Shown: positions 1,684 to 62,210 of the stretch, in pieces
Layout of the letters: each line of letters starts with the position of its first letter
How positions within the stretch are numbered: the stretch's first letter is position 1
DNA from: Orobanche coerulescens
Taxonomy: Eukaryota > Streptophyta > Magnoliopsida > Lamiales > Orobanchaceae
Length of the DNA stretch: 64,000 nucleotides
Assembly (NCBI GenBank): GCA_033398695.1
Contig: CM065819.1
Span: 6,125,501-6,189,500, forward strand
Reading direction: 5' to 3'
The notes under the pieces: generated by a model
The model's input: the letters and a program-made list of their open reading frames with translations, nothing else
Database searches by the model: none
What the model was told of the DNA's origin: nothing
Program-made: the position numbers and the translations under genes

Positions 1684-2561
1684 TGTCACGATTTATTCAT
1701 CCCGACAGGCGATCGACTATAAGGCCGAGCGACCAAGTCAACTCCAGTCAAACTTTGGCTAGCTCGCCTAATCGAAGATATCAGACCACCATCAGGTACC
1801 CAGCGATCGACTCCCAAGGCGATCGCCATTTGGTAGCTGGCGACCGACTCTAGTATCCGGCTAAGGACGGTCGACCTACGTCCCGAGCAGGGATGATCGC
1901 CCATCAAAGTCATCGAGGAATGGATCTCAGAACAGCACCCACATGCAGATCCACAAAAGGCGCTGACAGGCAAGATCTCCGCTTGACTGCCAGCAACTCC
2001 TGCAGACTTTAAGGGAACAAGCCCATGTGCTAAAAGACGATCGCCCGATTATTATAATGCAGTAAAGGCGATCGCCCGGCATATCAAAAGTCCTATAAAT
2101 AGAGAACCTCCTCCTACTGGAAAAAGATTCGGAATTCATTCCACCAACAACAGAAATACAGTAGAACACAAATAATACCAAGCTCCCCGCTTTCTCGCCG
2201 GAATCCATCTCAGGACTTCTCTCTCCGAATCTCTCGTCCAGAAGACGATCGGCAGAATCAGCGAGTTTCCACTAGACAGATTCCGAGAGATTTATAAGCC
2301 CAGGAGCCCAAGCATCCAGCTAAATACTCGCCGTGAGAGACGGTCGATCTCTCACCGCCGCGACTGTTCATCTCCTTTGTTACAAGAACTCACAGAGCAT
2401 CAAATCTGGTTCTTCCGGCAATCTACACGCTCACTAGCTAAGATAACAAGAATCTTTACACTCATTGTAATTGTATTCTTACATTAGTACTTGTATCCCC
2501 GAATATTAGTATTAATAATATCTCGCGAGAGCATTCAAGCCCGGGACTAACAACCCCGGCA
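1684..2561 (+). repeat. 3' LTR of the Tat element
   Basis: The LTR starts TGTCACG and probably ends CCCCGGCA. The right edge is uncertain by up to about 30 bp because the 5' LTR is not in the window. A TATA box (TATAAAT, 2094-2100) splits U3 from R. No coding sequence is expected in it and none is claimed. Confidence 0.6.
1708..2076 (+). repeat. GGCGATCGCC-type palindromes in the Tat LTR, upstream of TATA
   Basis: GGCGATCGCC occurs at 1818-1827 and 2067-2076, with variants at about 1708, 1802, 1892 and 2036. The last lies 17 bp before the TATA box. Related GATCGCC sequences also occur at about 1571 and 1615, outside the LTR, so this array is looser than those in the other LTRs. Confidence 0.5.
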
Positions 2562-4192: not shown

Positions 4193-4725
4193 TACGTAAT
4201 ATGTACGTTGACTTACTACAGTGAAACTCCATTTAACGAACGTTATACACTTCCCGTAGCGTACGTTAACCTCAGTGTTGACTCTCCCGTCCACATCCGC
4301 GCAGAAAGCTGCCGACCACGGAACCCACCTATCGGCCATAGCCTGATCCTGCCCGACATGAACTTAACGTACGTTAGCCTCCACTTAATGTACATAATAT
4401 GTATGCATCTTACGTACGTTAGCTATCTTTCTTAACGTACGTAATCCTTGTGCATTAGCGTACGCTAAGTATACATCGTAGCGTGCGATAACGTGAATAT
4501 ACTTGGCCATTTACACTGATCTTGCTTGTCATTTCAATATACCGAATACGTATACACAATATACTATATCCTTGAATGCAGTTGTCGACAAAGTACGACA
4601 ATTATACTAATACATATGTCTCAGTCTTTCAATAATTTTGTCCATACTGTACAAATTCCACATTGTACAATATAACTCGGATAAAATAACATTAAACAAT
4701 CATAGTACAAATTCAGGACATTACA
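4193..4725 (-). repeat. outer end of the B element's second LTR (rest at 49871-53024)
   Basis: This matches 46823-47354 at roughly 94% by eye and ends in the LTR terminus ATTACA. Counted without the F target duplication it adds 528 bp to the 3154 bp at 49871-53024, giving 3682 bp against 3679 bp for the other B LTR. It is followed by ATTTA (4726-4730), identical to the ATTTA before B at 43671-43675. It contains ACGTACGT palindromes (about 4365-4490). Confidence 0.75.
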
Positions 4726-4728
4726 ATT

Positions 4729-12170: not shown

Positions 12171-12800
12171 TAACATACAACCCCACAATTTAATTTAGTA
12201 AACAAATTTGATTCTATCAAGAAATTAACTATATCTTATCAATCGTAACATTCATTATTGTTGTGGTTATGTGTGTAATATCCGCAATTTTCGATTTTCG
12301 GTAATTTTCTTTTTTCGGCGGGAGTCCATTTTGACGACTCGCTTGTGACCATTCCGTCATTCTGAGAATATTTAATTCTGCACTTTTCGACGTCCGAGTT
12401 CGTTTCGGTGTCGTTTTGCCGAGTTCCGTGCTTTTTAGCGACTTTTCCGCACTTGAGTTCGATTCTTACGAATCTCGTCCGAAACTATTGTTTTGAGTTT
12501 CCCGTAAGTCCGTTTAACTTGGTTAGACGTGTTGTGAACTTTGGTTTGGTTATTCGATTACGTATCGTGATTTTCGGGTATTTTGGGCCATTTTATAATT
12601 TCCCAAAGTGGTGGGTATCCGTATACGTATTTGTTGTCTCGACCCTTTTTATGGCCGCGTGTGAGTTTGATTGTAACTCAAGCTCTTAGTATGATCTTAT
12701 TCTGGAGCTTTCCATGCGTATCTTGAACTTGGTGTTCCGATCGGAGGAATCCGTTGTTGTAATCGGCTTTGAGAGCACTGTTGCTGTCCTTTTGAGTCGT

Positions 12801-13174
12801 TAGCGCACGCTACACCTATTGGTTAGCGCGCGCTATGGTGCGGTTGTTAGCGCACGCTACAGGTTTGGTAGCGCACGCTAACGGGTGGTGCAGAAACATT
12901 CCAGAGGCTACTGGACTGGGTTAGAACGTTGGTTAGCGCACGCTATTTGGTAACATAACGCGCGCTAGGGTGCATTGGTAGCGCACGCTAGGGAAGGATA
13001 GCGCACGCTACCCGGTAGTTCAGGGCAGTCCAGGAGCTACTGGACTGGGTCTGGGGGACTCGTTAGCGCATGCTAATTTTTGTAGCTAGCGCGCTCTAAC
13101 TGTACATTTTGGCAGAACGTTTTGTTCTGATGCTTCGATAGCGCACGCTAATCAGGTAGGATTAGCGCACGCTA
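12801..13174 (+). repeat. palindrome cassette TAGCGCACGCTA in A 5' LTR
   Basis: Twelve copies or near copies start at 12801, 12824, 12848, 12869, 12934, 12956, 12979, 12999, 13064, 13087, 13139 and 13163. Most read TAGCGCACGCTA; variants are TAGCGCGCGCTA, TAACGCGCGCTA, TAGCGCATGCTA and TAGCGCGCTCTA. Spacers are unrelated except for a duplicated GCTACTGGACTGGG. The last copy ends 10 bp before the TATA box. Confidence 0.9.
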
Positions 13175-13184
13175 AGCTGTCCAG

Positions 13185-13192
13185 TATATAAA
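13185..13192 (+). promoter_or_regulatory. TATA box of A 5' LTR
   Basis: TATATAAA lies directly after the palindrome cassette and before a C/T-rich leader (TTTCTTCATTTCTTC). The same arrangement is at 40919-40926 in the 3' LTR. Confidence 0.7.
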
Positions 13193-14108
13193 GTGGACAA
13201 CAGTCATTAATCTGCATTTTTCTTCATTTCTTCTTTTTCCTCCGCGAGTTTGAGACGTGACGAATAGGGTTCGCATCTGGGCTGGTTTGCTTCCATCCAA
13301 AGGTGTTTTGGAGTATCCTAGGTGATTATAACATCATCTAATCCATTGTTCTTCACCGAATCAAGGTATTTTTCTTGGATCCCTAGAGTTGACTTTTTGG
13401 GGGATTTGTTCTTGATTTCGTTTTCCTTTCGGTTTTAATAGACCAATTGTTGTTTAATGATGTTGTTAAACATATCCTATGGATTGTATATTTATATTTC
13501 AGTTTGGAATTCCGTTTTCATGTTTTGGTCGGTCAATTCACGTTCTTGGCCGTTTTGGGGGAAACCCTTGAACTTTCGTCGTTTGTTCTTTGAATTCGGC
13601 GGCTTTGGGTCGTGCTATAGAATTCATTTTCATTGTTGTTATTGTTGTTCGTAGTTTATTGTCGCGGGTTAGCGCTCGGTGGAGTCGGCGGGTTCGTAGT
13701 CGGTTCGTGCCAACCTACTTCGATCGGTTCTTCGCGTAGGTGGTTGTTCGAGGTAAGTACCTTGTCCATACAATTCTTGTTTTATGGATATGGTAATTAG
13801 TGATCGTCTCCTTGTGTTTATTTGATCGTTTGAATTTTACTTTCAAAGATTCGGTTAGCCTTGTTAAAGGCCCTCTTTCAAAACGCGTGTATTTTGTGGA
13901 CATTGTGTTCGTGGATGGTTAGGTGAATTACTATGAATACACTTGGTGTTGTCGTTGTGCTTTGATAATATATATGTATATATTATCTCATATCGTTGCA
14001 GTGTGATTTGACCATTGCGTCGTGCATTGTGTTCGTTGCCATTGAGTGAATTACTTGGACATTATTGATGTGACATGTTATTTGTGTGAATGTGTGGATA
14101 TGGTTGAA

Positions 14109-14440
14109 GGTCTACGATGACACATGGCACGTGATCATGTGGTCACGATGCAGCAAGTGATTGATCCAACCGTGAGAGCCTGAGATAATCTACGGTGACA
14201 CATGGCTTGTGATCATGTGGTCCGGATGCAACAAGTGATTGATCCAACCGTGTGTGATTTGTTTAGCTAGCCAGTTCGGGAGGGTCCTTAGAGGCCTCGA
14301 GTGGGATTTGTGGCTTCGTCCCGATCCTAGGCGATGCATGTGCGTGATTTGTTTTATGATTGTGGCCAGCTCGGGAGGGTCCTTAGAGGCCTCGAGTGGG
14401 ATTTGTGGCTTCGTCCCGGTCCTAGGCGATGCTTGTATGT
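14109..14440 (+). repeat. minisatellites in A 5' LTR, downstream of TATA
   Basis: Two copies of a unit of about 80 bp (CTACGGTGACACATGGC, then GATCATGTGGTC) are followed by two copies of a unit of about 95 bp (GGGAGGGTCCTTAGAGGCCT, then GGGATTTGTGGCTTCGTCCC, which can form a GGGA/TCCC hairpin). The equivalent repeats of the 3' LTR are at about 41841-42190. Confidence 0.75.
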
Positions 14441-15199
14441 GATTATGTTGTGTTGATTTTATGTCCGTTGAGGACACTTGATGTGGGCTCTGACCCTGTG
14501 AATTGTTGTTGGTTTTATTTGTGAAAACAAAACCTTTGGGCTGTGACCCCTGTTGATTTTGTAAAGAGAAGGATTTGATAATCCTAAATTGTTTTCTACT
14601 AAAACTCCCGATGGCTTATTAAACCATTTTGTAAATTGTTTCCCTTGACTTGGGATCTTTCGATTTTGGAAAGCTTTACCTAAACTCTCGCCTCGGGAAA
14701 TATTTTCGTTATGTTTAAATCTTTGTGGATTCCTGGTTATTATTGTCCTTGGAACTCGTATTATATGGCTCGTATTTGCACTTTGTACTCGCACTAGCAA
14801 AACAGTGGAGTTTTGCTAACCCCCGAGTATTCGGGGGGTGGATGTTTGTTTTGCATTCACGTTTTGGAGCATAGCACAGGGTCGGCATGATGGATGATGA
14901 AAGATGAACGATACTAATCACACGAGGACCCGTTGATGTCGTATTGGTTTAGTTGTATTTTATTTTCCGCTGCAGTATTCTTTCCCCATTGTACGGGAGT
15001 GTGTTGTACTCGACCCCTGCGTGGGCATGTGTTGTGATTGAGTTGTATGTATTTATTGAAAGACCAAATCGGTCTAGTGAGTCATTTTAGCCTTAAAGGC
15101 ATTGTCGAGATGTTTAACATTATTACCAGCCTGGTAGATCCTTGAGGAAAGGTTCTACGGCGTGTAATATCCTTGAGCGGATCGGGGGTGTTACATAAA

Positions 15200-16251: not shown

Positions 16252-16384
16252 TGTTGGAACATTTTATTCCATGCATAAATTAAAAGTGTTTTGATGATTA
16301 ATGTTGATAAGCAAAACAAAACAACGAAGAGACGAAGCCAAGCATCGAAGGAAACAAAGTGCAAAAGGCTGAAAAAACAAAACG

Positions 16385-16703
16385 TTAACGTACGTAACGT
16401 GTGATCACTAACGTACGTAATATATGGATTTTTATGTACGTAATGAAAGTTATATAGCGTATGTAAACAAGTTCAAACCAGATGAACGTTGGATGAGTTG
16501 AAGTCAAAAAGGTGGCAACAGACATATGACGTCAGCAGTGACGTACTATTAACGTACGTAATGAGAAGTATGATAACGTACGTAAAGAAAGAAACGAATG
16601 TTCTTGGGTGAATGCGGGAGAAGCTAACGTGCGTAGCGATTAATGCGGTTAACGTACGTAAACAAGCTTACGTACGTAATGGAAAGTATATAGCGTACGT
16701 AAT
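16385..16703 (+). repeat. palindrome cassette TTACGTACGTAA in copia LTR 1
   Basis: About ten copies or variants of TTACGTACGTAA/TAACGTACGTAA are spread over 320 bp, ending about 40 bp before the TATA box (TATAAAT, 16744-16750). Equivalent cassettes are at about 19515-19834, 22643-22962, 25783-26099 and 28918-29235 in LTRs 2-5. Confidence 0.88.
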
Positions 16704-16743
16704 GAAGGTCATGGCAGCTAACGGCTAGTTTGATCAAGAAGCC

Positions 16744-16750
16744 TATAAAT
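16744..16750 (+). promoter_or_regulatory. TATA box of copia LTR 1
   Basis: CCTATAAATACC follows the palindromes and is conserved in all five LTRs. Confidence 0.7.
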
Positions 16751-17293
16751 ACCATGTCTATGGTATTGATTGTGTACAACAACACAAAGCATTCTATACC
16801 CTGATCAGAGATTGATATTCATTATATTGTTGTTGTAATATTGAGCTTACATTGAGTGTTTGAGTGTTATACACAAAATCATACACGAGCGGTAAAAGAA
16901 AATATACGATTGGATTCGGTGTTATTAGGATCAAGGATCCGACATTGTTAGAATCGCAATCGCTATCTTCGTGAGGTTTATCTAGTACCCATAGAAAGCT
17001 AGAGCGGTTGATTCCTTGTCCGATAGAAAAGGAAAATGGTTTAACTTGGACTGACGCAAAGACAAGTACGAGTGGTTTATCACGGACCAATAGAAGACGT
17101 GATTGTAACGGTTATACCTCGACCGATAGAAGAGAGACGTAGAGGTTGCTATCTTTAACCTATTGAAAAAGATAAAGAGAGGACGTAGGCTCGTTTATAG
17201 CCGAACCTCTATAAATTCTTGTGTCATTTATTTTCCGCAATTTTACTTACGCTTCCGCAAACGGCCCAAATATCCGACCCCATACCCAACAAT

Positions 17294-17305
17294 TGGTATC
17301 GGAGC
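17294..17305 (+). promoter_or_regulatory. primer binding site of copia unit 1
   Basis: TGGTATCGGAGC starts two bases after the LTR, one change from the iMet site TGGTATCAGAGC. It recurs after LTRs 2, 3 and 4. Confidence 0.7.
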
Positions 17306-17352
17306 GGTACTCCAATACGCGGCTTAACATCCGAGGAGAAAAAGATCAAAAA

Positions 17353-18890: not shown

Positions 18891-19383
18891 TTTTTGATAT
18901 TTTACTCAGGGGGAGTATAATTTTTTTTAATGAGAGATAATATTTTCTGGGGAGTTTTTACTCTTTATGCATTTATTTATATCGTGCATATTCTACATTT
19001 TGGTATCATTAAATTCAATTGCTATTTTTTTACTTTTTGATGAAAACAAAAAGGGGGAGAGAAAGGAGGAAAATAAGAAAATGGGATTTACCCTAAAAGG
19101 GGAGAAACGAAGGAGTTAAAAAAATGAAAAGGGGAAGTCGAAAAATGACAGAAAAAGAAAAATTGAGGAGACGTCGAAAAGATGATGAAAATTTGAAAAG
19201 TCGAAAAGAAAAAGAAAAGGAAAGAAGGAGAAAGAAGAAGTCGAAAAAGAAATGGGAGAAGAAACTAACGAAATGGACAAAGTCGAAAACTTTGGTCTGT
19301 ACACATATACATATATTTACATTTTTTTTGCAGGAAAATCCCATTGTGAAATGTTGTTTTGTAATCATCAAAAAGGGGGAGAT

Positions 19384-20422
19384 TGTTGGAACATTTTATT
19401 CCATGCATAAATTAAAAGTGTTTTGATGATTAATGTTGATAAGCAAAACAAAACAACGAAGAGACGAAGCCAAGCATCGAAGGAAACAAAGTGCAAAAGG
19501 CTGGAAAAACACAACGTTAACGTACGTAACGTGTGATCACTAACGTACGTAATATATGGAATTTTATGTACGTAATGAAAGTTATATAGCGTATGTAAAC
19601 AAGTTCAAACCAGATGAACGTTGGATGAGTTGAAGTCAAAAAGGTGGCAACAGACATATGACGTCAGCAGTGACGTACTATTAACGTACGTAATGAGAAG
19701 TATGATAACGTACGTAAAGAAAGAAACGAATGTTACTGGACTGAATCTGGGAGAAGCTAACGTACGTAACAGTGTCTGGTTAACGTACGTAAACAAGCTT
19801 ACGTACGTAATGGGAAGTATATAGCGTACGTAATGAAGGTCATGGCAGCTAACGGCTAGTTTGATCAAGAAGCCTATAAATACCATGTCTATGGTATTGA
19901 TTGTGTACAACAACACAAAGCATTCTATACCCTGATCAGAGATTGATATTCATTATATTGTTGTTGTAATATTGAGCTTACATTGAGTGTTTGAGTGTTA
20001 TACACAAAATCATACACGAGCGGTAAAAGAAAAGATACGATTGGATTCGGTGTTATTAGGATCAAGGATCCGACATTGTTAGAATCGCAATCGCTATCTT
20101 CGTGAGGTTTATCTAGTACCCATAGAAAGCTAGAGCGGTTGATTCCTTGTCCGATAGAAAAGGAAAATGGTTTAACTTGGACTGACGCAAAGACAAGTAC
20201 GAGTGGTTTATCACGGACCAATAGAAGACGTGATTGTAACGGTTATACCTCGACCGATAGAAGAGAGACGTAGAGGTTGCTATCTTTAACCTATTGAAAA
20301 AGATAAAGAGAGGACGTAGGCTCGTTTATAGCCGAACCTCTATAAATTCTTGTGTCATTTATTTTCCGCAATTTTACTTACGCTTCCGCAAACGGCCCAA
20401 ATATCCGACCCCATACCCAACA
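19384..20422 (+). repeat. copia array LTR 2
   Basis: 1039 bp, shared between unit 1 (as 3' LTR) and unit 2 (as 5' LTR). It is preceded by the purine tract AAAAAGGGGGAGAT. Confidence 0.92.
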
Positions 20423-20483
20423 ATTGGTATCGGAGCGGTACTCCAATACGCGGCTTAACATCCGAGGAGAAAAAGATCAAAAA

Positions 20484-22511: not shown

Positions 22512-23550
22512 TGTTGGAACATTTTATTCCATGCATAAATTAAAAGTGTTTTGATGATTAATGTTGATAAGCAAAACAAAACAACGAAGAAACGAAGCCA
22601 AGCATCGAAGGAAACAAAGTGCAAAAAGCTGGAAAAACACAATGCTAACGTACGTAACGTGTGATCACTAACGTACGTAATATATGGAATTTTATGTACG
22701 TAATGAAAGTTATATAGCGTATGTAAACAAGTTCAAACCAGATGAACGTTGGATGAGTTGAAGTCAAAAAGGTGGCAACAGACATATGACGCCAAGAAGG
22801 ATTTACTATTAACGTACGTAATGAGAAGTATGATAACGTACGTAAAGAAAGAAACGAATGTTACTGGACTGAATCTGGGAGAAGCTAACGTACGTAACAG
22901 TGTCTGGTTAACGTACGTAAACAAGCTTACGTACGTAATGGGAAGTATATAGCGTACGTAATGAAGGTCATGGCAGCTAACGGCTAGTTTGATCAAGAAG
23001 CCTATAAATACCATGTCTATGGTATTGATTGTGTACAACAACACAAAGCATTCTATACCCTGATCAGAGATTGATATTCATTATATTGTTGTTGTAATAT
23101 TGAGCTTACATTGAGTGTTTGAGTGTTATACACAAAATCATACACGAGCGGTAAAAGAAAAGATACGATTGGATTCGGTGTTATTAGGATCAAGGATCCG
23201 ACATTGTTAGAATCGCAATCGCTATCTTCGTGAGGTTTATCTAGTACCCATAGAAAGCTAGAGCGGTTGATTCCTTGTCCGATAGAAAAGGAAAATGGTT
23301 TAACTTGGACTGACGCAAAGACAAGTACGAGTGGTTTATCACGGACCAATAGAAGACGTGATTGTAACGGTTATACCTCGACCGATAGAAGAGAGACGTA
23401 GAGGTTGCTATCTTTAACCTATTGAAAAAGATAAAGAGAGGACGTAGGCTCGTTTATAGCCGAACCTCTATAAATTCTTGTGTCATTTATTTTCCGCAAT
23501 TTTACTTACGCTTCCGCAAACGGCCCAAATATCCGACCCCATACCCAACA
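22512..23550 (+). repeat. copia array LTR 3
   Basis: 1039 bp. Its first 150 bp carry the same private changes as LTR 5 (GAAGAAACG, AAAAGCTGG, AATGCTAACG), while the rest matches LTR 2, so it is a mosaic. It also has GACGCCAAGAAGGATTTAC in place of GACGTCAGCAGTGACGTAC. Confidence 0.92.
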
Positions 23551-23610
23551 ATTGGTATCGGAGCGGTACTCCAATACGCGGCTTAACATCCGAGGAGAAA
23601 AAGATCAAAA

Positions 23611-25647: not shown

Positions 25648-26687
25648 TGTTGGAACATTTTATTCCATGCATAAATTAAAAGTGTTTTGATGATTAATGT
25701 TGATAAGCAAAACAAAACAACGAAGAGACGAAGCCAAGCATCAAAGGAAACAAAGTGCAAAAGGCTGGAAAAACACAACGTTAACGTACGTAACGTGTGA
25801 TCACTAACGTACGTAATATATGGAATTTTATGTACGTAATGAAAGTTATATAGCGTATGTAAACAAGTTCAAACCAGATGAACGTTGGATGAGTTGAAGT
25901 CAAAAAGGTGGCAACAGACATATGACGTCAGCAGTGACGTACTATTAACGTACGTAATGAGAAGTATGATAACGTACGTAAAGAAAGAAATGAATGTTAC
26001 TGGACTGAATCTGGGAGAAGCTAACGTCGTAGCGATTAATGCGGTTAACGTACGTAAACAAGCTTACGTACGTAATGGGAAGTATATAGCGTACGTAATG
26101 AAGGTCATGGCAGCTAACGGCTAGTTTGATCAAGAAGCCTATAAATACCATGTCTATGGTATTGATTGTGTACAACAACACAAAGCATTCTATACCCTGA
26201 TCAGAGATTGATATTCATTATATTGTTGTTGTAATATTGAGCTTACATTGAGTGTTTGAGTGTTATACACAAAATCATACACGAGCGGTAAAAGAAAAGA
26301 TACGATTGGATTCGGTGTTATTAGGATCAAGGATCCGACATTGTTAGAATCGCAATCGCTATCTTCGTGAGGTTTATCTAGTACCCATAGAAAGCTAGAG
26401 CGGTTGATTCCTTGTCCGATAGAAAAGGAAAATGGTTTAACTTGGACTGACGCAAAGACAAGTACGAGTGGTTTATCACGGACCAATAGAAGACGTGATT
26501 GTAACGGTTATACCTCGACCGATAGAAGAGAGACGTAGAGGTTGCTATCTTTAACCTATTGAAAAAGATAAAGAGAGGACGTAGGCTCGTTTATAGCCGA
26601 ACCTCTATAAATTCTTGTGTCATTTATTTTCCGCAATTTTACTTACGCTTCCGCAAACGGCCCAAATATCCGACCCCATACCCAACA
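25648..26687 (+). repeat. copia array LTR 4
   Basis: 1040 bp. It is chimeric: TGTTACTGGACTGAATCTGG as in LTR 2, followed by TAGCGATTAATGCGG as in LTR 1, with one palindrome reduced to AACGTCGTAGC. Confidence 0.92.
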
Positions 26688-26748
26688 ATTGGTATCGGAG
26701 CGGTACTCCAATACGCGGCTTAACATCCGAGGAGAAAAAGATCAAAAA

Positions 26749-28784: not shown

Positions 28785-29823
28785 TGTTGGAACATTTTAT
28801 TCCATGCATAAATTAAAAGTGTTTTGATGATTAATGTTGATAAGCAAAACAAAACAACGAAGAAACGAAGCCAAGCATCGAAGGAAACAAAGTGCAAAAA
28901 GCTGGAAAAACACAATGCTAACGTACGTAATGTGTGATCACTAACGTACATAATATATGGAATTTTACATACGTAATGAAAGTTATATAGCGTACGTAAA
29001 CAAGTTCAAACCAGATGAACGTTGGATGAGTTGAAGTCAAAAAGGTGGCAACAGACATATGACGTCAGCAGTGACGTACTATTAACGTACGTAATGAGAA
29101 GTATGATAACGTACGTAAAGAAAGAAACGAATGTTACTGGACTGAATCTGGGAGAAGCTAACGTACGTAACAGTGTCTGGTTAACGTACGTAAACAAGCT
29201 TACGTACGTAATGGGAAGTATATAGCGTACGTAATGAAGGTCATGGCAGCTAACGGCTAGTTTGATCAAGAAGCCTATAAATACCATGTCTATGGTATTG
29301 ATTGTGTACAACAACACAAAGCATTCTATACCCTGATCAAATATTGATATTCATTATATTGTTGTTGTAATATTGAGCTTACATTGAGTGATTGAGTGTT
29401 ATACACAAAATCATACACGAGCGGTAAAAGAAAAGATACGATTGGATTCGGTGTTATTAGGATCAAGGATCCGACATTGTTAGAATCACAATTGCTATCT
29501 TCGTGAGGTTTACCTAGTACCCATAGAAAGATAGAGCGGTTGATTCCTTGTCCGATAGAAAAGAAAAACGGTTTAACTTGGACCGACGCAAAGACAAGTA
29601 CGAGTGGTTTATCACGGACCAATAGAAGACGTGATTGTAACGGTTATACCTCGACCGATAGAAGAGAGGTGTAGAGGTTGCTATCTTTAACCTATTGAAA
29701 AAAATAAAGAGAGGACGTAGGCTCGTTTATAGCTGAACCTCTATAAATTCTTGTGTCATTTATTTTCCGCAATTTTACTTACGCTTCCGCAAACGACGCA
29801 AATATCCGACCCCATACCCAACA
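28785..29823 (+). repeat. copia array LTR 5 (oldest-looking)
   Basis: 1039 bp. Its 3' half carries about a dozen private substitutions, such as ACAATTGCTATC and GAAAAACGG, that LTRs 1-4 do not share. It looks like the original 3' LTR of the insertion, with the other units copied later. Confidence 0.92.
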
Positions 29824-31379: not shown

Positions 31380-31922
31380 TGTAATATCCGCAATTTTCGA
31401 TTTTCGGTAATTTTCTTTTTTCGGCTGGAGTCCGTTTTGACGACTCAATTGTGACCGTTTCGTCATTCTGAGAATATTTAATTATGCACTTTTCGACTTC
31501 TGAGTTCGTTTCGGTGTCGTTTTTCCGAGTTCCGTGCTTTTTAGCGACTTTTCCGCACTTGAGCTTGATTCTTACGAATCTCATCCGAAACTATTGTTTT
31601 GAGTTTCCCGTAAGTCCGTTTAACTTGGTTAGATGTGTTGTGAAATTTGGTTTGGTTATTCGATCACGTATCGTGATTTTCGGGTGTTTTGGGCCATTTT
31701 ATAATTTCCCAAAGTGGTGGGTATCTGTATACGTATTTGTTGTCTCGACCCTTTTTATGGTCGCGTGTTAGTTTGATTATAACTCAAGCTCTTAGTATGA
31801 TCTTATTCTGGAGCTTTCCGTGCGTATCTTGAACTTGGTGTTCCGATCGTAGGAATCCGTTGTTGTAATCGGCTTTGAGAGCACTGTTGTTGTCCTTTTA
31901 AGTCGTTAGCGCACGCTACACC
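31380..31922 (+). repeat. 3' LTR of element A, left part
   Basis: The first 543 bp of the LTR, from TGTAATATCCGC to the first palindrome TAGCGCACGCTA (31907-31918), where element C inserted. The last five bases, ACACC, are the target duplication of C. Confidence 0.9.
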
Positions 31923-32483
31923 TGTAATATCCGCAATTTTCGATTTTCGGTAAATTTCTTTTTTTTCGGTGGAAGTCCGTTTTGACGACTCGCTCGTGAC
32001 CGTTTCGTCATTCCGAGAATGATTAATTCTGCACTTTTTGTCATCCGAGTTCGTTTCGGTGTCATTTTGTTGAGTTCCGTGCTTTTTAACGGTTTTTCCG
32101 CACTTGAGTTCGATTCTTGCGAATCTCGTCTGAAACTGTTGTTTCGACTTTCTCGTAAGTTCATTTAATGTTAATATTCATGTTGCGAGCTTCGGTTTGG
32201 TTATTCGATCACGTATCGTGATTTTGGGGCGTTTTGGGCCATTTTCGTAATTTCCCAAAGTTTGGGGTAATTACTTTCCGTTGTCGAATTTCGAGCCTTC
32301 GGGTAGTCGGAATCGTGTGTTGTATTAGTGCTCGGATTCGTCTTTTCGAGTACTTCGTAACCGTATCTTCGATTCGCAGTTCGGGTTCGGGGTCGTTCGG
32401 GCCGTCGGAGTTGGTCCCGCCGAGTCATGGCGGGCATGCTCGGGCCAGCCACTGGCCGAGTAACGTGCGGTAGTGGACCGGCG

Positions 32484-32605
32484 ATTATGTACGTAAGACC
32501 GATTCGTACGTAAGACCTGGCCGTGCGTACGTAACGTTCCGGCATTTTCCAGCAGGAGTTCGGCCATGGCGGTTACGTCGTAAGCCATGGCGATTCGTCG
32601 TAACG
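32484..32605 (+). repeat. palindrome cassette (TACGTAAG / TTACGTCGTAA) in C 5' LTR
   Basis: Five units are seen: TATGTACGTAAG, TTCGTACGTAAG, GTGCGTACGTAAC, TTACGTCGTAAG and TTCGTCGTAAC. The cassette ends about 11 bp before TATTTAA (32617-32623). Confidence 0.8.
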
Positions 32606-33576
32606 GCCGATCGGCCTATTTAAGGCACAGCGGCGTTTTTCTTCAGCCATTTCTCATTCTTTCTCTTCCCGTACGCGGCTGTGGGTGTGTGAATCATCTA
32701 GAGATGTTGTTGGACAATGAATCCATGAAGTGTTGAGGTTCATATCATCAATCATCCGTCCTATAACATCCTCCGATCTACCGACCAGTCGATTTCTTAG
32801 AAATCTAGTTTTGGGGAATTTGGGTATTTTGGTTGTTTTCGTCCGATTAATCCGATTTAACTTAGGATTATGATGGATTGATGAATATTTAGATGTATTA
32901 TATCATTTCCTTTATTATTCCATGGTTGGATCGTATCGATTCGTTGTTTTGGTCGAGTTCTTGGTCGACGCCTTGAAGGTGTCCAGTAGAATGTCATAGA
33001 GGGGTTTTCGGGCGTTCTACGATTATTCTTCCTCGTATGATCGATGATTTATTGATTATATGTTGTTAGGGTCGAATTCTTGTGAAGAACTCGAGTCGGA
33101 ACCCTTCCGTTCGTTGTCTTCTTCGGGGTCCGAGCTTCCCGATCGAACCGTGTTCTTCGGAGCGTTTGGTAGCGGTTATTAAGGCAAGTATCTTATTATA
33201 CGACTTGTATCTTGTGACTAGTAATTACGTATGATATGATATGTATGACGATTTTGCTTGCCTCCGTAAATATGTTCCGTTTGAGTTGGTTGTGTTTTCC
33301 GAAATTTGAAGGCTTTGTGATAATAGTGATATATTGGTATCCGTGTTAGGCGTTGTGCCATTTGTGCAGGATTGCGAAGTACATATGAGATGGTTGTACA
33401 CGTGGTTGTTCAATGTATTGTGTACCGAATGTGTGTTATGTTGGTTAAGAGTCGTTGTGATGATCATGATATTTGTGTTGTTTTGGTTTACATACTTGAT
33501 TGTACATTTTATTGTAATGTGGAATGGCTTGACATTTAATGATTATGAATTGTGTCGTGTCGATGTGTGTGTGTTC

Positions 33577-37716: not shown

Positions 37717-40545
37717 TGTAATATCCGCAATTTTTGATTTTCGGTAAATTTCTTTTTTTCAGTGGAAGTCCGTTTTGACGACTCGCTCGTGACCGTTTCG
37801 TCATTCCGAGAATGATTAATTCTGCACTTTTTGTCATCCGAGTTCGTTTCGGTGTCATTTTGTTGAGTTCCGTGCTTTTTAGCGGTTTTTCCGCACTTGA
37901 GTTCGATTCTTGCGAATCTCGTCTGAAACTGTTGTTTCGACTTTCTCGTAAGTTCATTTAATGTTAATATTCATGTTGCGAGCTTCGGTTTGGTTATTCG
38001 ATCACGTATCGTGATTTTGGGGCGTTTTGGGCCATTTTCGTAATTTCCCAAAGTTTGGGGTAATTACTTTCCGTTGTCGAATTTCGAGCCTTCGGGTAGT
38101 CGGAATCGTGTGTTGTATTAGTGCTCGGATTCGTCTTTTCGACTACTTCGTAACCGTATCTTCGATTCGTACTCAGGTTCGGGTTTCGGGGTCGTTCGGG
38201 CCGTCGGAGTTGGTCCCGGCCGAGTCATGGCCGGGCATGCTCGGGCCAGCCACGGCCGAGTAACGTGCGGTAGTGACCGCGATTACGCACGTAAGACCGA
38301 TTACGTCGTAAGACCCGGCCGTAACGTATGTAACGTTCCGGCATTTTCCAGCGGGGAGTTCGCCATGGCGATTACGTCGTAAGCCGTGGCCGATTCGTCG
38401 TAACCCACGGCATCGGCTTATTTAAGGCACAGCGGCGTTTTTCTTGACCATTTCTCATTCTTTCTCTTCCGTACGCGGTGTGGGTGTGTGAATCATCTAG
38501 AGATGTTGTTGGACAATGAATCCATGAAGTGTTGAGGTTCATATCATCAATCATCCGTCCTATAACATCCTCCGATCTACCGAATCAGGTCAGATTTCTT
38601 AGAAATCTAGTTTTGGGGAATTTGGGTATTTTGGTTGTTTTCGTCCGATTAATCCGATTTAACTTAGGATTATGATGGATTGATGAATATTTAGATGTAT
38701 TATATCATTTCCTTTATTATTCCATGGTTGGATCGTATCGATTCGTTGTTTTGGTCGAGTTCTTGGTCGACGCCTTGAAGGTGTCCGGTAGAATGTCATA
38801 GAGGGGTTTTCGGGCGTTCTACGATTATTCTTCCTCGTATGATCGATGATTTATTGATTATATGTTGTTAGGGTCGAATTCTTGTGAAGAACTCGAGTCG
38901 GAACCCTTCCGTTCGTTGTCTTCTTCGGGGTCCGAGCTTCCCGATCGAACCGTGTTCTTCGGAGAGTTTGGTAGCGGTTATTAAGGCAAGTATCTTATTA
39001 TACGACTTGTATCTTGTGACTAGTAATTACGTATGATATGATATGTATGACGATTTTGCTTGCCTCCGTAAATATGTTCCGTTTGAGTTGGTTGTGTTTT
39101 CCGAAATTTGAAGGCTTTGTGATAATAGTGATATATTGGTATCCGTGTTAGGCGTTGTGCCATTTGTGCAGGATTGCGAAGTACATATGAGATGGTTGTA
39201 CACGTGGTTGTTCAATGTATTGTGTACCGAATGTGTGTTATGTTGGTTAAGAGTCGTTGTGATGATCATGATATTTGTGTTGTTTTGGTTTACATACTTG
39301 ATTGTACATTTTATTGTAATGTGGAATGGCTTGACATTTAATGATTATGAATTGTGTCGTGTCGATGTGTGTGTGTTCCAGGTAGGGTCTGACGAGGCCT
39401 CTGGAGTTCGGTACATGATGTGTACGAACAAAGTGTGTGATCTAGGTAGGGTCTGACGAGGCCTCTGGAGTCCGGTACATGACGTGTACGGACAAGGTGT
39501 GTGATCCAGGTAGGGTCTGACGAGGCCTCTGGAGTTTGGTACATGATGTGTACGAACGATGTTGTGGCCGGGTAGGGTCCGTTGAGGCCTCCGGAGTTCG
39601 GTACATGATGTGTACGAACAGTGTGTGTGGCCGGGTAGGGTCCGTTGAGGCCTCCTGAGTTCGGTACATGATGTGTACGAACAGTGTGTGTGGCCGGGTA
39701 GGGTCCGTTGAGGCCTCCGGAGTTCGGTACATGATGTGTACGAACAGTGTGTGTGGTCCGGTAAGGTCCGTCGAGGCCTCGGAGTTCAAGACATGATGTG
39801 TACGAACATTGATCGTGTAGCGATGATTGTTCGGGTAACATTTTAAATATGGATCTCGACTCATAATGATATATTATTTAGTATGCTTTGAACGAGAATC
39901 GGGCTAAGGCCCTAATGTTTACGAAAAGGTTTTGTAAATTGGGACTCGAGGTCCAAAAGAATTTCTACTTTAAGAATCCCCGAGATGATGTGTTCCTTTT
40001 CAAATATCTCTTATTTGAGTTCGAAATTCTAAAACTTCTCGGGAACATTTTGATAATTGATTTTCGTATTAAATTCGTAGTTGCTATTTGCTTGTTACAT
40101 TTCGTATGGTTTGATACTTGCACTAGTAAAACAGTGGAGTTTTACTAACCCCGAGTATTCGGGGTGGATGTCTGCTTTAAGGCCCGTGCACTGCGCAGAT
40201 TCGAGGAGCAACACAGGATTGGCACAAGAGGATGACGAGCTGCGATACTAATCAAGAGTCGAGAGTTGGTAGAGTTTGGTTGTATTGTTAGAGTTCATTC
40301 AGTCTTCCGCTGTATTGTGTTTCGACCCCTGTGTGGGTAATGTTGTTAGTCAGTTCTGTTGATAGAGTTGTATGAACTCATCGGTCTGTGTGTTTATGTG
40401 TAAGTGACCTTAACGGTCTGTAATATTATATTGTTTGACCCTGGCCGGGCAAGCATTTAGTCTTTTATGGATGTTTAGCCTGGTAGATCCTTGTGGAAGG
40501 GGTCTACGGCGTGTAATATTCCCATACGGTTTTGGGGATGTTACA
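37717..40545 (+). repeat. 3' LTR of element C
   Basis: 2829 bp, TGTAATATCCGC to GGGGATGTTACA. The cassette is at 38282-38404 (TTACGTCGTAAG units), the TATA-like TATTTAA at 38419-38425 and the minisatellite at about 39379-39812. Long stretches (for example 39027-39456 against 33225-33654) look identical to the 5' LTR, but the cassette differs clearly. Confidence 0.9.
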
Positions 40546-40550
40546 ACACC

Positions 40551-42937
40551 TATTGGTTAGCGCGCGTTATGGTGCAGTTGTTAGCGCACGCTACAAATTT
40601 GGTAGAGCACGCTAACGGGTGGTGCAGAAACAGTCCAGAGGCTACTGGACTGGGTTAGAACGTTGGTTAGCGCACGCTATTTGGTAACATAACGCGCGCT
40701 AGGGTGCATTGGTAGCGCACGCTGGGGGAGGATAGCGCACGCTACCCGGTAGTTCAAGGCAGTCCAGGAGCTACTGGACTGGGTCTGGGGAACTCGTTAT
40801 CGCACGCTAATTTTTGTAGCTAGCACGCGCTAATTGTACATTTTGGCAGAACGTTTTGTTCTGATACTTCGATAGCACACGCTAATCAAGTAGGATTAGC
40901 ACACGCTAAGTTGTCCAGTATATAAACTGGACAACAGTCATTAATCTGCATTTTTCTTCATTTCTTCTTCTTCCTCCGCGAGTTTGAGACGTGGCGAATA
41001 GGGTTTGCAGCTGGGCTGATTTGCTTCCATCTAAAGGTGTTTTGGAGTATCCTAGGTGATTATAACATCATCTAATCCATTGTTCTTCACCGAATCAAAG
41101 TATTTTTCTTGGATCCCTAGAGTTGACTTTTTGGGGAATTTGTTCTTGATTTCATTTTCCTTTCGGTTTTGATAGACCGATTGTTGTTTAATGATGTTGT
41201 TAAACATATCCTATAGATTGTATATCCATATTTCAGTTTGGAATTCCGTTTTCATGTTTTGGTCGGTCGATTCGCGTTCTTGGCCGTTTTGGGGGAAACC
41301 CTTGAACTTTCATCGTTTGTTCTTTGAATTCAGCGGTTTTGGTTGGTGCTATAGAATTCATTTTTATTGTTGTTATTGTTGTTCGTAGTTTATTGTCGCG
41401 GGTTAGCGCTCGGTGGAGTCGGCGGGTTCGTAGTCGGTTCGTGCCAACCTACTTCGATCGGTTCTTTGCGTTGGTGGTTGTTCGAGGCAAGTACCTTGTC
41501 CATACAATTCTTGTTTTATGGATATGATAATTAGTGATCGTCTCCTTGTGTTTATTTGATCGTTTGAATTTTAGTTTCAAAGATTTGGTTAGCCTTGTTA
41601 AAGGCCCTCTTTCAAAACGCGTGTGTTTTGTGGACATTGTGTTCGTAGATGGTTACGTGAATTACTATGAATACACTTGGTGTTGTCGTTGTGCTTTGAT
41701 AATATATATGTATATTATCTCATATCGATGCGTTGTGATTTGACCATTGCGTCGTGCATTGTGTTCGTTGCCATTGAGTGAATATCTTGGATATTATTGA
41801 TGTGACATGTTATTTGTGTGAATGTGTGGATATGGTTGAAGGTCTACGGTGACACATGGCACGTGATCATGTGGTCAGGATGCAGCAATTGATTGATCCA
41901 ACCGTGAGAGCCTGAGATAATCTACGGTGACACATGGCTTGTGATCATGTGGTCAGGATGCAACAAGTGATTGATCCAACCGTGAGATATGGTATGTGAT
42001 TTGTTTAGCTAGCCAGCTCGGGAGGGTCCTTAGAGGCCTCGAGTGGGATTTGTGGCTTCGTCCCGGTCCTAGGCGATGCATGTGCATGATTTGTTTTATG
42101 ATTGTGTCCAGCTCGGGAGGGTCCTTAGAGGCCTCGAGTGGGATTTGTGGCTTCGTCCCGGTCCTAGGCGATGCTTGTATGTGATTATGTTGTGTTGATT
42201 TTATGTCCGTTGAGGACACTTGATGTGGGCTCTGACCCTGTGAATTGTGTTGGTTTTATTTGTGAAAACAAAACCTTTGGGCTATGACCCCTGTTGATTT
42301 TGGAAAGAGAAGGATTTGATAATTCTAAATTGTTTTCTACTAAAACTCCCGATGGCTTATTAAACCATTTTGTAAATTGTTTCCCTTGACTTGGGATCTT
42401 TCGATTTTGGAAAGCTTTACCTAAACTCTCACATCGGGAAGTATTTTCGTTATGTTTAAATCTTTGAGGATTCCTGATTATTATTGTCCCTGGAACTTGT
42501 ATTGTATGGCTCGTATTTGCACTTTGTATTCGCACTAGCAAAATAGTGGAGTTTTGCTAACCCCCGAGTATTCGGGGGATGGATGTCTGTTTTTGCCTTC
42601 AGGTTTTGGAGCATAGCACAGAATCGGCATGATGGATGATGAAAGATGAACGATACTAATCACACGAGGACCCGTTGATGTCGTATTGGTTTAGTTGTAT
42701 TTTATTTTCCGCTGAAATATTCTTTCCCCGTTGTACGGGAATGTGTTGTACTCGACCTCTACGTGGGCATGTGTTGTGATTGAGTTGTATGTATTTATTG
42801 AAAGACCAAATCGGTCTACTGAGTCATTTTAGCCTTAAAGGCATTGTCGAGATGTTTAACATTGTTACGAGCCTGGTAAATCCTTGAGAAAAGGTTCTAC
42901 GGCGTGTAATATCCCTGAGCGGATCGGGGGTGTTATA
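40551..42937 (+). repeat. 3' LTR of element A, right part
   Basis: Continues the LTR after element C. It holds the rest of the TAGCGCACGCTA cassette (about 40552-40909), the TATA box (40919-40926) and the minisatellites (about 41841-42190), and ends GGGGGTGTTATA. Together with 31380-31922 it is 2930 bp. Confidence 0.9.
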
Positions 42938-46678: not shown

Positions 46679-47112
46679 TTACGTACGTTATCAATCCATA
46701 TTAACATACGTAATGCGCCTTACGTACGCTATATGTCTCTCATAGCGTACGTAACATCATTCCAGAACTCACTCCTATTCCGTTAAATCGATTACGTATG
46801 TAACATATCCTTCATAGCATACGTAATATGTACGTTGACTTGCTACAGTGAAACTCCATTTAACATACGTTATACACTTACCGTAGCATACGTTAACCTC
46901 AGCGTTGACTCGCCCGTCCACATCCGCGCCGAAAGCTGCCGACCACGGGACCCACCTGTCGGCCATAGCGTGATCCTGCCCGACATGAACTTAACGTACG
47001 TTAGCCTATCCACTTAACGTACGTAATATGTATGCATCTTACGTACGTTAGCTATCTTTATTAACGTACGTAATCCTTGTGCATTAGCGTACGTTAAGTA
47101 TACATCGTAGCG
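46679..47112 (-). repeat. palindrome cassette (ACGTACGT and TAGCG types) in B LTR
   Basis: More than a dozen units such as TTACGTACGTTA, TAACGTACGTAA, TAGCGTACGTTA and TAGCGTGCGCTAA are present. On the minus strand they sit directly upstream of the TATA box. The mix shows both the copia-type and the A-type core in one LTR. The second LTR has the start of the same cassette at 52878-53024, where F inserted. Confidence 0.88.
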
Positions 47113-47354
47113 TGCGCTAACGTGAATATACTTGGCCATTTACACTGATCTTGCTTGTCGTCTCAATATACCGAATACGTATACAGAACATACTATATCC
47201 TCGAATGCAATTGTCGACCAATTACGACAATTATACTAATACAGATGTCTTAGTCTTTCAATAATTTTATCCATAATGTACAGATTCCACATTGTACAAT
47301 ATAACTCGGATAAAATAACATTAAACAATCATAGTAGAAATTCAGGACATTACA

Positions 47355-52800: not shown

Positions 52801-53024
52801 AGTTGGAGGAAGGATATCGATTTTCTCTCGTAAAGAAAAGAAAGAATGAACCTTATTTTATAAACTGCATCGCTCATTACGTACGTTATCAATCCATATT
52901 AACGTACGTAATGCGCCTTACATACGCTACATGTCTCTCATAGCGTACGTAACATCATTCCAGAACTCACTGACCTGTTCCGTTAAATCGATTATGTACG
53001 TAACATATCCTTCATAGCGTACGT
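49871..53024 (-). repeat. second LTR of element B (5' LTR on the minus strand), cut by F
   Basis: Starts TGTAACACCCCC and matches the other LTR at about 97% by eye. It breaks off inside the palindrome cassette at TAGCGTACGT, with TACGT (53020-53024) as the F target duplication. Confidence 0.88.
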
Positions 53025-53282: not shown

Positions 53283-53729
53283 TAGCGCACGCTACGATGT
53301 ATACTTAGCGTATGCTAAGCTACAAGGATTACGTACGTTAATGAGTAGAGTTAACGTACGTTAAGTTGCTAAGTGTTACGTACGCTATGCATGAGGCATT
53401 ACGTACGTAACGAGAGGAATTAGACAGCTCAGGCTATGGCCGGCAGGTGCGACCTGCGGTCGACAGCTTTCGGCGAGGAACGTGCACGGGTGAGTCAACA
53501 TTGAGTTAGCGTACGCTACGATTAGTGTATAACGTACACTAACTGGACATTTACTGTAGCAAGTCAACATACGTATTACATACGTTATGGAGGAAACATT
53601 ACGTATGTAAGCAAGTGAACGAAACAGGTCAGCGAGCTTTGGCCGGACGTTAGCGTACGCTAAGGATTTGAGTATAACGTACGCTAAGCCTTTTACGTAC
53701 GTAATGGAGTATAGGTAACGTACGTAATG
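53283..53729 (+). repeat. palindrome cassette (mixed TAGCG and ACGTACGT types) in F
   Basis: TAGCGCACGCTA, TAGCGTATGCTA, TTACGTACGTTA, TAACGTACGTTA, TAGCGTACGCTA and TAACGTACGTAA follow one another and end about 10 bp before TATAAAA (53742-53748). Confidence 0.88.
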
Positions 53730-57161: not shown

Positions 57162-57457
57162 CCGTGTCGTCCGACACGGCCCGTGCCGTACTCGTCCGGA
57201 AATGCCGAAAGTTTCTGTCTCAGGACCCGGCCGTGTCGTCCGACACGGCCCGTGCCGTACTCTTCCGGATAAGCCGGAACCGACTGCCCAGAGGCCCGAC
57301 CGTGTTCCAGGACACGGTCGAGTCGTCTTGTCATTGTCGGGCCGGACGGTCGCTATCGGAAGGCCCTACGCGCCCGCGACCGTGTCAAGCGGGACACGGT
57401 CGAGTCCTGTCGGCAGGTATGCGACACGGCCGTGCCGATCGGCACGGGCCGTGTCCG
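57162..57457 (+). repeat. palindrome cassette CCGTGTC/GACACGG in LTR E
   Basis: Perfect or near-perfect palindromes occur at 57162-57179 and 57231-57248 (CCGTGTCGTCCGACACGG), 57300-57317 (CCGTGTTCCAGGACACGG) and 57380-57399. A 36-bp compound palindrome of CGACACGG and CCGTGTCCG arms spans 57422-57457. TATAAAAG starts 14 bp later at 57471. Confidence 0.9.
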
Positions 57458-57470
57458 GCAGCGATCGACC

Positions 57471-60666: not shown

Positions 60667-61950
60667 CTTAGCGCACGTTAATCTTTTCTTGTAGCGTGCG
60701 CTAAGTTGTTCCCGATAGCGTGCGCTAGCGGTAGCTTAGCGTGCGCTAATAACGTGCAGTTACATGCATTTCGGATACCGATCAACATCTGGCGATTATC
60801 AAAGACTCTAAGTGATTTTGAATCATGTTCATAGCTATCAAACAACGAAATCCAATATCCTTTAACATATAGGTAATCATCCGACTTTTAATTCAAGTCA
60901 TATATTCATATTTCATCTTTCTTAATATCAACAACCTAAACACCAAGAACTCATAATCATGCCATGTTCATCATCATATGAAGGAACCAACAACAACGAC
61001 ATCACAGATCCGAATTGAAGGAAGACATTATCCAACATATCTCTTTGAAGATAACAACTCATTTGAAACCATCTAATTCATATCAATATCTTCATATCAA
61101 CGATAACATTATCATAATCCGGTAATCCAACTCATAATCATACTTATGAACTTGTTTATATGATAATCATCAGCTCAAGAACATCATATACAATCCAAAA
61201 CGAAATCTCAAAGTGAAGAGTAATTACCTTTTTGAAGGAATGGATTGATTTTCAAGGTTGAATCCATTTACAAGAATCACCAATGATTTCAAGCTTCAAA
61301 TGTTGTTATGGATGATTAACTCCATCTTAATCCAGTGTTTGGAACCTCAAATATATCCCAACTCTCTCTCTCTCTCTCTCTCTCTCGGCGGAAAGAAGAA
61401 AGAATGACGAAATGCTTAATAACACCCTTCTGCCCCTTTTTATAATATTCATTATTAACGTGCGCTAACATCTCATGTTTAGCGTGCGCTACCGCCTTAG
61501 CGTGCGCTAACTGACTTTGTTAGCGTGCGCTATCAGCTCCGAGGCTCTTGTCTTGCTTCGTAAACTAACTTACGTCGTAATGCCCATGCATTAACGTCGT
61601 AAATCATCCCGATTAGCGTCGCAAGTCATTTACCTTAGCGTGCGTTAATACGATTGACTTGCTACGGTCCCACCTACCACGAAGATGCTCATGACCCCAC
61701 ATTCCGAAATCAACCATTAAAGCCAAGATTCCCTGTTGACTGATATACAGTTAGCGTGCGCTAATCAACATGCATTAGCGTGCGCTAACACTACATTACA
61801 ACATCCATTGACTTATCATAACGTGCGCCGAAAGTGGCCAGGTCCACGCGTAGATTCCTTCTCGAGTGATGCACTAGCGTCGCTAACCTATGAACGTGGC
61901 GTGCGCTAATCACGCGATAGCGTGCGCTATGCATGAATATCAGCGTGCGC
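60667..61950 (-). repeat. palindrome cassettes (TAGCGTGCGCTA, with TTACGTCGTAA) in G LTR
   Basis: Two clusters are present: about four units at 60667-60751 and about a dozen at 61455-61950. The main unit is TAGCGTGCGCTA, the reverse complement of the A unit, with a few TTACGTCGTAAT-type units near 61570-61600. On the minus strand the larger cluster ends directly before TATAAAAA (61437-61444). Confidence 0.85.
61361..61386. repeat. (CT)13 microsatellite
   Basis: Uninterrupted CT dinucleotides in the transcribed part of the G LTR; on the element's strand it is a GA run. It is absent from the B LTRs. Confidence 0.9.
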
Positions 61951-62210
61951 TAATAACGCTATACTTAGCCATTTTCAGCTATCCTTGTCCAACATCTCGA
62001 CATATCAAATACGAACATACGACATATCAAATATACATTACTCAACACATTATATCCTCAAATACAATTGTCGACCAAATACGACAATTATACCAATACT
62101 GACATCTCAGTCCTTCATTTATTTTATCCCTCTTCATGCATTCCATGCTGTACAATATAACTCGGATAAAATAACATCAAACAACAGTAGTAGAAATTCC
62201 GGATATTACA

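Follow-up and report, generated by a model that had tools for sequence, protein, structure and literature searches.

The window, a 64,000-nt stretch of the Orobanche coerulescens genome (CM065819.1:6125501-6189500; assembly of 3.65 Gb), consists of LTR elements nested in one another, as resolved by self-comparison and inspection of boundaries. Element A (12274-42937; 5′ LTR at 12274-15195; target duplication ATGTG) contains a tandem copia array (16252-29823; five LTRs and four internal parts; period of ∼3.13 kb), the copies of which are ∼98.5% identical when shifted against each other. Copia matches ∼3.1 kb apart also occur at other places in the genome, e.g., C7:9721359 and 9724498. Element C (31923-40545; target duplication ACACC) lies inside the 3′ LTR of A. 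The LTRs of B, F, and G measure ∼3.6 to 3.7 kb each and lie at 43676-47354 (B, minus strand; the second LTR is split into a part that includes 52877-52952 and a part displaced to the left side of the window), at 53025-56079 and 3602-4192 (F, plus strand), and at 56157-56453 and about 58868-62210 (G, minus strand). A solo LTR, E (56454-58867, plus strand; target duplication AAAAG), interrupts the LTR of G, and a 3′ LTR at 1684 to about 2667 (plus strand) keeps the label Tat-like from a first-pass annotation of this DNA.

LTRs of A, C, E, F, and G start with TGTAATATCC (12274, 31923, 37717, 53025, and 56454 on the plus strand; 62210 on the minus strand), that of B starts with TGTAATGTCC (47354, minus strand), and the ends are GTTACA or its decay. 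The first-pass annotation had assigned its families to unrelated superfamilies; copia and Tat do stand apart, but the common termini unite A, B, C, E, F, and G, which we provisionally label Tekay-like and chromovirus-like. Because no ORF of at least 200 aa is present in the internal parts of A, B, and C or in the part of G inside the window, these copies look non-autonomous. Rfam gave no match within the window at gathering thresholds. In the one copia copy scanned, a gag domain (PF14223) was found at 17377-18018, along with two further ORFs without a match. The octamer AGGGGGAG occurs at 19374, 22502, 25638, and 28775, each exactly 10 bp before an LTR start, with two to four further copies per copia internal region. 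A polypurine tract with this octamer, present in several copies and ending up exactly 10 bp ahead of the 3′ LTR, is a Sirevirus criterion in the accessible text of PMC2829016, and we refer to the copia element as Sirevirus-like.

The order of elements is permuted across 3602-4730 and 43671-56079. The target duplication of B (ATTTA) is found at 43671-43675 and 4726-4730 and that of F (TACGT) at 53020-53024 and 4193-4197, and the break between the two F segments falls, on the homologous LTR of G, between exactly adjacent positions (3070|3071). This arrangement resembles a linearised circle re-inserted elsewhere, a translocation, or a misassembly. Upstream of the Tat-like LTR, a 233-aa ORF (184-882, minus strand) has a weak match to Transposase_28 (PF04195).

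Palindromic arrays upstream of TATA boxes

Most palindromic units in these LTRs fit one degenerate 12-bp dyad, TWRCG-NN-CGYWA (TWRCGNNCGYWA). The 5′ LTR of A has 10 exact units (12801..13174, plus strand; eight with a CA core and two with a CG core) and, with one mismatch allowed, the 12 counted in the first-pass annotation; the last lies 10 bp before the TATA box TATATAAA (13185..13192, plus strand). In the 3′ LTR of A, element C was inserted 4 bp after the first unit (31907..31918, plus strand), and the remaining array (40558..40744, plus strand) has five exact units and several decayed ones. Copia LTR 1 (16252-17291) holds seven exact units, all with a TA core (16386..16702; 10 with one mismatch), and LTRs 2 to 5 hold eight (19518..19833), eight (22646..22961), seven (25782..26098), and eight (28919..29234), all on the plus strand; the TATA box follows the last unit by 41 bp. 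The B array (46679..47119, minus strand) has nine exact units, or 14 with one mismatch, and a TATA box 14 bp past the last. The second LTR of B retains three exact units in its TATA-proximal part (52877..52952, minus strand) and six in the distal part displaced to the left side of the window (4234..4467, minus strand). F has 10 exact units (53283..53727, plus strand), the first with a CA core and nine with a TA core, with TATA 14 bp on. G has eight (61456..61952, minus strand), all with a CA core on the LTR strand and TATA 11 bp on, and a second array of four units (60669..60748, minus strand), which lies ∼700 bp past TATA as the LTR strand is read.

Other LTRs approach this pattern less closely. 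C fits the 12-mer weakly, with a single exact unit in its two LTR copies together: the 5′ LTR (32461..32616, plus strand) has degenerate TTATGTACGTAA, TTACGTCGTAA, and GGCCGATCGGCC against TATTTAA and no exact unit, and the 3′ LTR (38261..38384, plus strand) has one exact unit (38283) and copies of TTACGTCGTAA with an N1 centre. In E (57164..57470, plus strand), GTGTCG-TC-CGACAC dyads are separated by 69 bp and accompanied by further CG-N2-CG sites up to TATAAAA at 57471; none of its dyads fits the 12-mer, the 5-2-5 geometry being the same and the arms different. Both C1 and E have a dyad at 0 to 3 bp before TATA. The Tat-like LTR (1710..2078, plus strand) has CGATCG dyads (GGCGATCGCC at 1818 and 2067) and neither an exact 12-mer nor the 23-bp pitch described below. 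These CGATCG sites are mostly kept in L052, a copy 89% identical, and CG-N2-CG counts exceed all 200 shuffles in the Tat pieces L049, L051, and L052, and not in L050. E and Tat are possible relatives of the code, not members. Tat-like copies elsewhere in the genome have ∼149 bp more between positions 1983 and 1984, missing from the window copy and L052.

The TATA positions of the first-pass annotation are right for A (13185), copia (16744), F (53742), E (57471), C (32617; TATTTAAG), and Tat (2094); for B and G, its values of 46657 and 61437 mark the low-coordinate ends of minus-strand boxes, whose starts are near 46664 and 61444. Its observation that the last unit lies close before TATA is borne out by the distances in A, B, F, G, and copia given above.

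Inverted-repeat coverage reached 0.33 in A (12801-13200) versus 0.055 in dinucleotide shuffles (z = 6.4), and z was 6.8 in F (53201-53600), 5.7 in G (61401-61800), and 3.2 in E (57201-57600). Near TATA in C it was 4.1 (38001-38400) and 3.1 (32201-32600), with 4.9 to 5.4 farther off. By this plain palindrome measure, copia reached only 2.0, and B and Tat were not among the best 60 intervals listed. The CG-N2-CG count, which gave a clearer picture, was taken over 450 bp before TATA (410 bp for Tat) in nine LTRs with 300 shuffles and was in excess in seven of them (≤0.013 of shuffles reaching the observed value): observed versus expected counts were 11 and 2.8 in A, 19 and 7.8 in E, 9 and 3.5 in B, 11 and 3.4 in F, 8 and 2.8 in G, 8 and 2.1 in copia, and 10 and 1.9 in Tat. 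Neither C copy had an excess. Downstream of TATA, none of the nine LTRs showed one, and of the seven with a distal U3, G alone had a weak excess there (0.033). The claim that every LTR family has a cassette before TATA fails outside the window: L009, a copia element with RVT_2 that is autonomous, has an LTR with no unit even when one mismatch is allowed and no significant CG-N2-CG excess (2 versus 0.7; 0.147).

For comparisons of array position and similarity, we used the 37 of 44 arrays that have at least three units (for similarity, C2 and E were added and one copia LTR was kept). TATAWA lies within 90 bp of an end in 15 of the 23 arrays from a genome sample (∼4 expected by chance, at 9.8% per side), in 14 of these 15 at 10 to 14 or 35 to 42 bp. 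The same is true of 10 of the 14 window arrays; the exceptions are fragments of interrupted or gapped arrays, together with G's second array.

A 12-bp dyad with a fixed centre and pitch

Exact 12-mers number 95 in the window versus 0.95 in shuffles. All 95 lie within LTRs, 91 of them in U3 before TATA, and the 29.2 kb of the window outside annotated LTRs contains none; the only four outside a U3 form the second array of G. The genome sample, which was not used to define the motif, comprised twenty 10-kb pieces with hand-chosen coordinates on 19 contigs of 138 to 237 Mb. It holds 155 exact units versus 2.6 in shuffles, present in 14 of the 20 pieces. When the half-sites were held fixed and the centre was varied across these pieces, N2 gave the 155, and none of the remaining centres between N0 and N12 gave more than five. 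The mean of 7.75 units per 10 kb (bootstrap, 4.6 to 11.3) corresponds to ∼2.8 million 12-mers genome-wide (1.7 to 4.1 million), if the 20 pieces are representative. A motif-free count of 5-2-5 inverted repeats over both sample and window returned TAGCG (79), TTACG (40), and TAACG (17) as the top CG-containing arms. Besides L009, five further sample pieces, which may lack a whole LTR, are without a unit.

Distances between neighbouring units were counted with copia LTRs 2 to 5 left out as near-copies and with arrays split at gaps of >200 bp. Of 179 distances, 96 are ≤30 bp; 80 of these fall at 22 to 24 bp (53 at exactly 23 and 22 at 24), eight at 18 bp, and none below 18. The mode is 23 or 24 bp in copia and, separately, in four other groups, which we assigned from similarity (loosely for L020c/d, L022a, and L023a). 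Just before TATA, an 18-bp step between steps of 23 to 25 bp recurs in copia, B, F, and G. Outside the 12-mer, information per position is mostly <0.5 bit, with a maximum of 1.3 bits in the 19-unit GC-core group. Tandem Repeats Finder (TRF) reported repeats in B (23 and 47 bp) and in A (130 bp).

The array is present in both LTR superfamilies, namely the Sirevirus-like Ty1/copia element and Ty3/gypsy chromovirus-like elements. Sample piece L014 encodes gypsy RVT_1, RNase H, and integrase zinc domains and SH3_Tf2-1, with a weak Chromo match (21.5 bits, below the cut-off of 25.1); its 3′ LTR, starting with TGTAATATCC at 5393, carries a unit array. L011, gypsy by its pol domains, has an array of the GC dialect. 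The description of a modular promoter-proximal cassette therefore fits: the array recurs in two superfamilies, and its spacers have little sequence in common.

CACTA elements were considered as further carriers, since the 23-bp-pitch array of L026 adjoins a tnp2 ORF (PF02992), and were rejected because the array comes from another repeat family. Among the genome matches of L026, 39 of the 40 scored cover the tnp2 part alone, and seven further tnp2 copies (L036 to L042) have no array, L036 having one exact unit. When 40 of 252 candidates for the array's own family were scored (43 matches), its copy L046 was found to start with TGTAATACC, like gypsy LTRs.

Dialects and conservation of the units

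Units vary in their cores, and they do so by array. Core letters agree in 0.70 of within-array pairs over 23 arrays versus 0.38 after permutation (maximum of 2,000 permutations, 0.46). Most CA cores are flanked by TAGCG half-sites and most TA cores by TWACG, and GC or AC cores have TTACG; mixed cores are found in L014, L020a, L025a, and L027. CGGCCG units occur in the sample arrays of L011, L021, and L027, and the CA and TA dialects lack CGGCCG. The first-pass annotation called the motif family specific, which these assignments contradict: TWACG-TA-CGTWA is common to copia, B, and F, and A and G have the same unit on opposite strands, since G lies on the minus strand and its TAGCGTGCGCTA is TAGCGCACGCTA of A.

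The CA core is polar. It reads CA rather than TG on the LTR strand in 54 of 56 units over 15 arrays, with both exceptions in L014 (strands were set by similarity to F for L020a, by the ORF for L014, and by the side of TATA or the LTR ends for the rest). Symmetry between half-sites, counted on the same set of units as the distances, is at the chance level at the W position (160 of 219 versus 158 permuted) and above it at R (175 of 219 versus 164; reached by 0.001 of 2,000 permutations). The distal U3 regions of A, C, and E are 84 to 87% alike over 239 to 373 bp, yet their units differ, being TAGCG-CA-CGCTA, a degenerate TTACG type, and TGTCG-TC-CGACA, respectively. Contrary to the quick turnover that had been proposed, the motif does not change freely, and most array-bearing families keep one geometry.

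Within six elements, we compared the two LTR copies; a unit was counted when at least one of them matched exactly, a choice that favours units. CG sites changed in 20 of 215 cases in units, 91 of 1,025 in the rest of the LTR, and, somewhat faster, 32 of 225 in spacers. Non-CG unit sites changed in 10 of 420, ∼four times more slowly than unit CGs, and non-CG sites changed three to four times more slowly than CGs. Since the unit CGs change like other LTR CGs, the standing copies are probably methylated and look unprotected.

Between families, nine pairs were aligned in both directions with slices trimmed to the LTR. Alignment anchored on units, which is biased towards them, gave identities of 84% in units, 61% in spacers, and 72% in flanks, with CG kept in 225 of 299, 132 of 288, and 165 of 353 cases. 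Masking the units before alignment, which misaligns distant pairs, gave 60%, 58%, and 72%, with CG kept in 146 of 301, 124 of 299, and 164 of 352. Thus, as to substitution within and outside the cassette, a comparison to which the first-pass annotation had pointed, the anchored alignment favours the units and the masked control shows little. In the masked alignments, 80 of the 149 units that aligned coincide exactly with a unit, versus 1.3 expected after sliding, with positions kept between B and F (eight of nine and nine of 10), from L023b to B (seven of seven), and from L016a to B (nine of 10). Taking both biases into account, we conclude that unit positions are kept between related families. 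The same alignments make selection on the letters of individual units likely, with the two versions pointing in different directions. Unit-for-unit switching of dialect, seen in the anchored comparisons of copia with L017 and of F with G, fails with units masked: zero of seven units from copia to L017 and one of four back fall exactly on a unit, as do one of 10 from F to G and zero of eight back.

A candidate host reader and its rivals

One geometry (TWR-CG-NN-CG-YWA, with an N2 centre and a 23- to 24-bp pitch) across superfamilies argues for a common reader over a separate target for each family. We somewhat favour the interpretation that the cassette is a binding-site array for a putative dimeric DNA-binding factor of the host. 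Each 12-bp unit would offer a dimer two T-W-R-C-G half-sites around the fixed 2-bp centre, and units packed at ∼23-bp intervals immediately before the core promoter would seat several dimers side by side, which may raise or protect transcription of the element. Reliance on one host factor, or on its paralogues, would explain why copia and gypsy elements share these sites, and the CA, TA, and GC dialects would reflect different paralogues or a shifted specificity. From the motif and its layout we infer binding, a dimer, a protein of host origin, and activation in preference to other effects. In a broader form, which we offer tentatively as possible rather than probable, one host protein family would read a polar CG-N2-CG dyad, spaced at 23 bp, at ∼2.8 million sites in two superfamilies, and the dialects would track diverging paralogues, amounting to contest or exploitation across the genome in a code that can be read.

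No factor that we considered fits all dialects. The first-pass annotation had pointed to ACGT cores as bZIP sites; neither the CA nor the GC dialect contains ACGT, which makes bZIP proteins poor general readers. NAC proteins are likewise rejected in that role: the site TTNCGTA, as given in the accessible text of PMC8725346, fits TTACG-TA half-sites and is lacking in TAGCG-CA and TTACG-GC units.

Arrays of this kind could also arise as neutral minisatellites, ∼23-bp tandem repeats grown by slippage or unequal exchange with units that are recent copies of one another. The regular pitch, the largely uniform cores, the TRF repeats in A and B, and the masked alignments, in which units are hardly better kept than spacers, are what such growth would leave; slippage would copy spacers too, yet these have little common information, and neither the same 12-mer and pitch in two superfamilies nor the strict N2 centre and the 91 of 95 units before TATA are expected of a neutral repeat, so we consider this origin unlikely. 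Transfer dispenses with a common reader in another way, by letting one lineage (e.g., Sirevirus) evolve the array and others capture it by template switching. The 12-mers and 18-bp step common to copia, B, F, and G speak for it; pooled spacers have little common sequence in the copia or gypsy groups, and the gypsy groups differ in dialect, so that capture is very unlikely on this showing. The units are near-palindromes, and U3 is the transcribed 3′ end of genomic RNA in retroelements; they might accordingly pair in the RNA and serve in dimerisation, packaging, or processing. Symmetry at R is above the permuted level, as pairing would have it. A 2-nt loop cannot close a hairpin, W is symmetric only at the chance level, the CA core is polar, and the arrays end near TATA, all of which leave an RNA-level role barely credible.

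Another reading is silencing, in which small RNAs or a methylation recruiter would recognise the palindromes and the dialects would be escape variants. Palindrome-rich LTR regions of maize Sireviruses are rapidly evolving small-RNA hotspots in the accessible text of PMC5311732, so that a silencing role stays open, and unit CGs change ∼four times faster than non-CG unit sites, as in methylated DNA. The decay of unit CGs does not outpace that of LTR CGs elsewhere, leaving no extra methylation visible, and a target read by a silencer only should be lost, whereas 14 of 20 pieces retain exact units, most of them in arrays of 3 to 16; we regard this account as quite unlikely. The first-pass annotation drew a comparison, an analogy only, with VANC proteins of VANDAL elements. 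A protein of autonomous relatives would bind the arrays and lift silencing, with non-autonomous copies as parasites. VANC targets are short tandem-repeat motifs, different from one related element to the next, and VANC6 motifs also occur in AT9TSD1, which is unrelated (accessible text of PMC5735166); the dialects here are likewise largely uniform per array. One geometry in copia and gypsy would require a single element protein to serve both, and a Pfam scan of the long ORF of L014 returned domains of the gag-pol type alone, which makes an element-encoded reader highly improbable. VANDAL and VANC remain similar in having a short arrayed motif in noncoding DNA that differs between related elements, although the VANC target described there is a nonpalindromic 9-bp motif, YAGTATTAY, in DNA transposons, and its reader is a product of the element itself.

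The closest known system is the repeated-motif (RM) box of Sireviruses (Bousios et al. 2010, PMC2829016), here as set out in the accessible text of that paper. RM boxes are palindromic, occur in many copies, are alike within an element and different between elements, and cluster upstream of TATA, which follows the CpG island by 37 bp on average; their authors found no common site for a single factor. The window copia resembles these elements in its AGGGGGAG copies and their 10-bp distance from the LTR, and 10 dyad units (with one mismatch allowed) stand before TATA in its LTR 1, against eight or more in RM boxes, the TATA box coming 41 bp after the last. RM boxes vary in length, have a CGG-CCG core in all but one case, and were reported to be Sirevirus specific within Ty1/copia. 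Here, in contrast, one 12-bp N2 dyad at a 23- to 24-bp pitch spans copia and Ty3/gypsy chromovirus-like elements, as in the 3′ LTR of the gypsy element L014, and CGGCCG is confined to the minority GC dialect. Maize Sirevirus LTRs have a highly variable, palindrome-rich regulatory region (Bousios et al. 2016, as described in PMC5311732), which that description, in its accessible part, places in one lineage with no mention of sharing across superfamilies. Host factors are known to bind LTR promoter sites in ONSEN heat elements and at the W-boxes of EVADE, described per single family in the accessible text of PMC12786077; here, one site grammar recurs in 14 of 20 genome pieces. Palindromic boxes before TATA are therefore known in Sireviruses, and a word and pitch shared with Ty3/gypsy look new. 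A literature text search with three unit strings of 9 to 10 letters gave no match that mentions "retrotransposon"; it mostly did not cover subscription papers, and this absence is weak.

The promoter-site array is real, abundant, and position specific, and a shared code is more interesting than the partly wrong family-specific reading. The pattern suggests that one kind of host protein may read the promoters of many mobile elements in this genome. An abundant motif of fixed centre and pitch in both superfamilies is a direct bait for the candidate factor, which may drive or restrain many retrotransposons of the 3.65-Gb genome, and the dialects are natural variants for tests of co-evolution. The motif would also extend the Sirevirus boxes, reported as lineage specific, to Ty3/gypsy elements.

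Two of the nested insertions in the window fall inside cassettes, C in that of A (31918-31922, ACACC) and F in that of B (53020-53024, TACGT). In a study of nested plant elements, LTRs were not common targets and the preference for palindromes was weak (accessible text of PMC6911290), and two cases prove nothing about insertion preference. Within C, a stretch of the internal part that runs across the start of the 3′ LTR (36601-37800) has an excess of CG-rich inverted repeats (z, 3.4 to 5.5).
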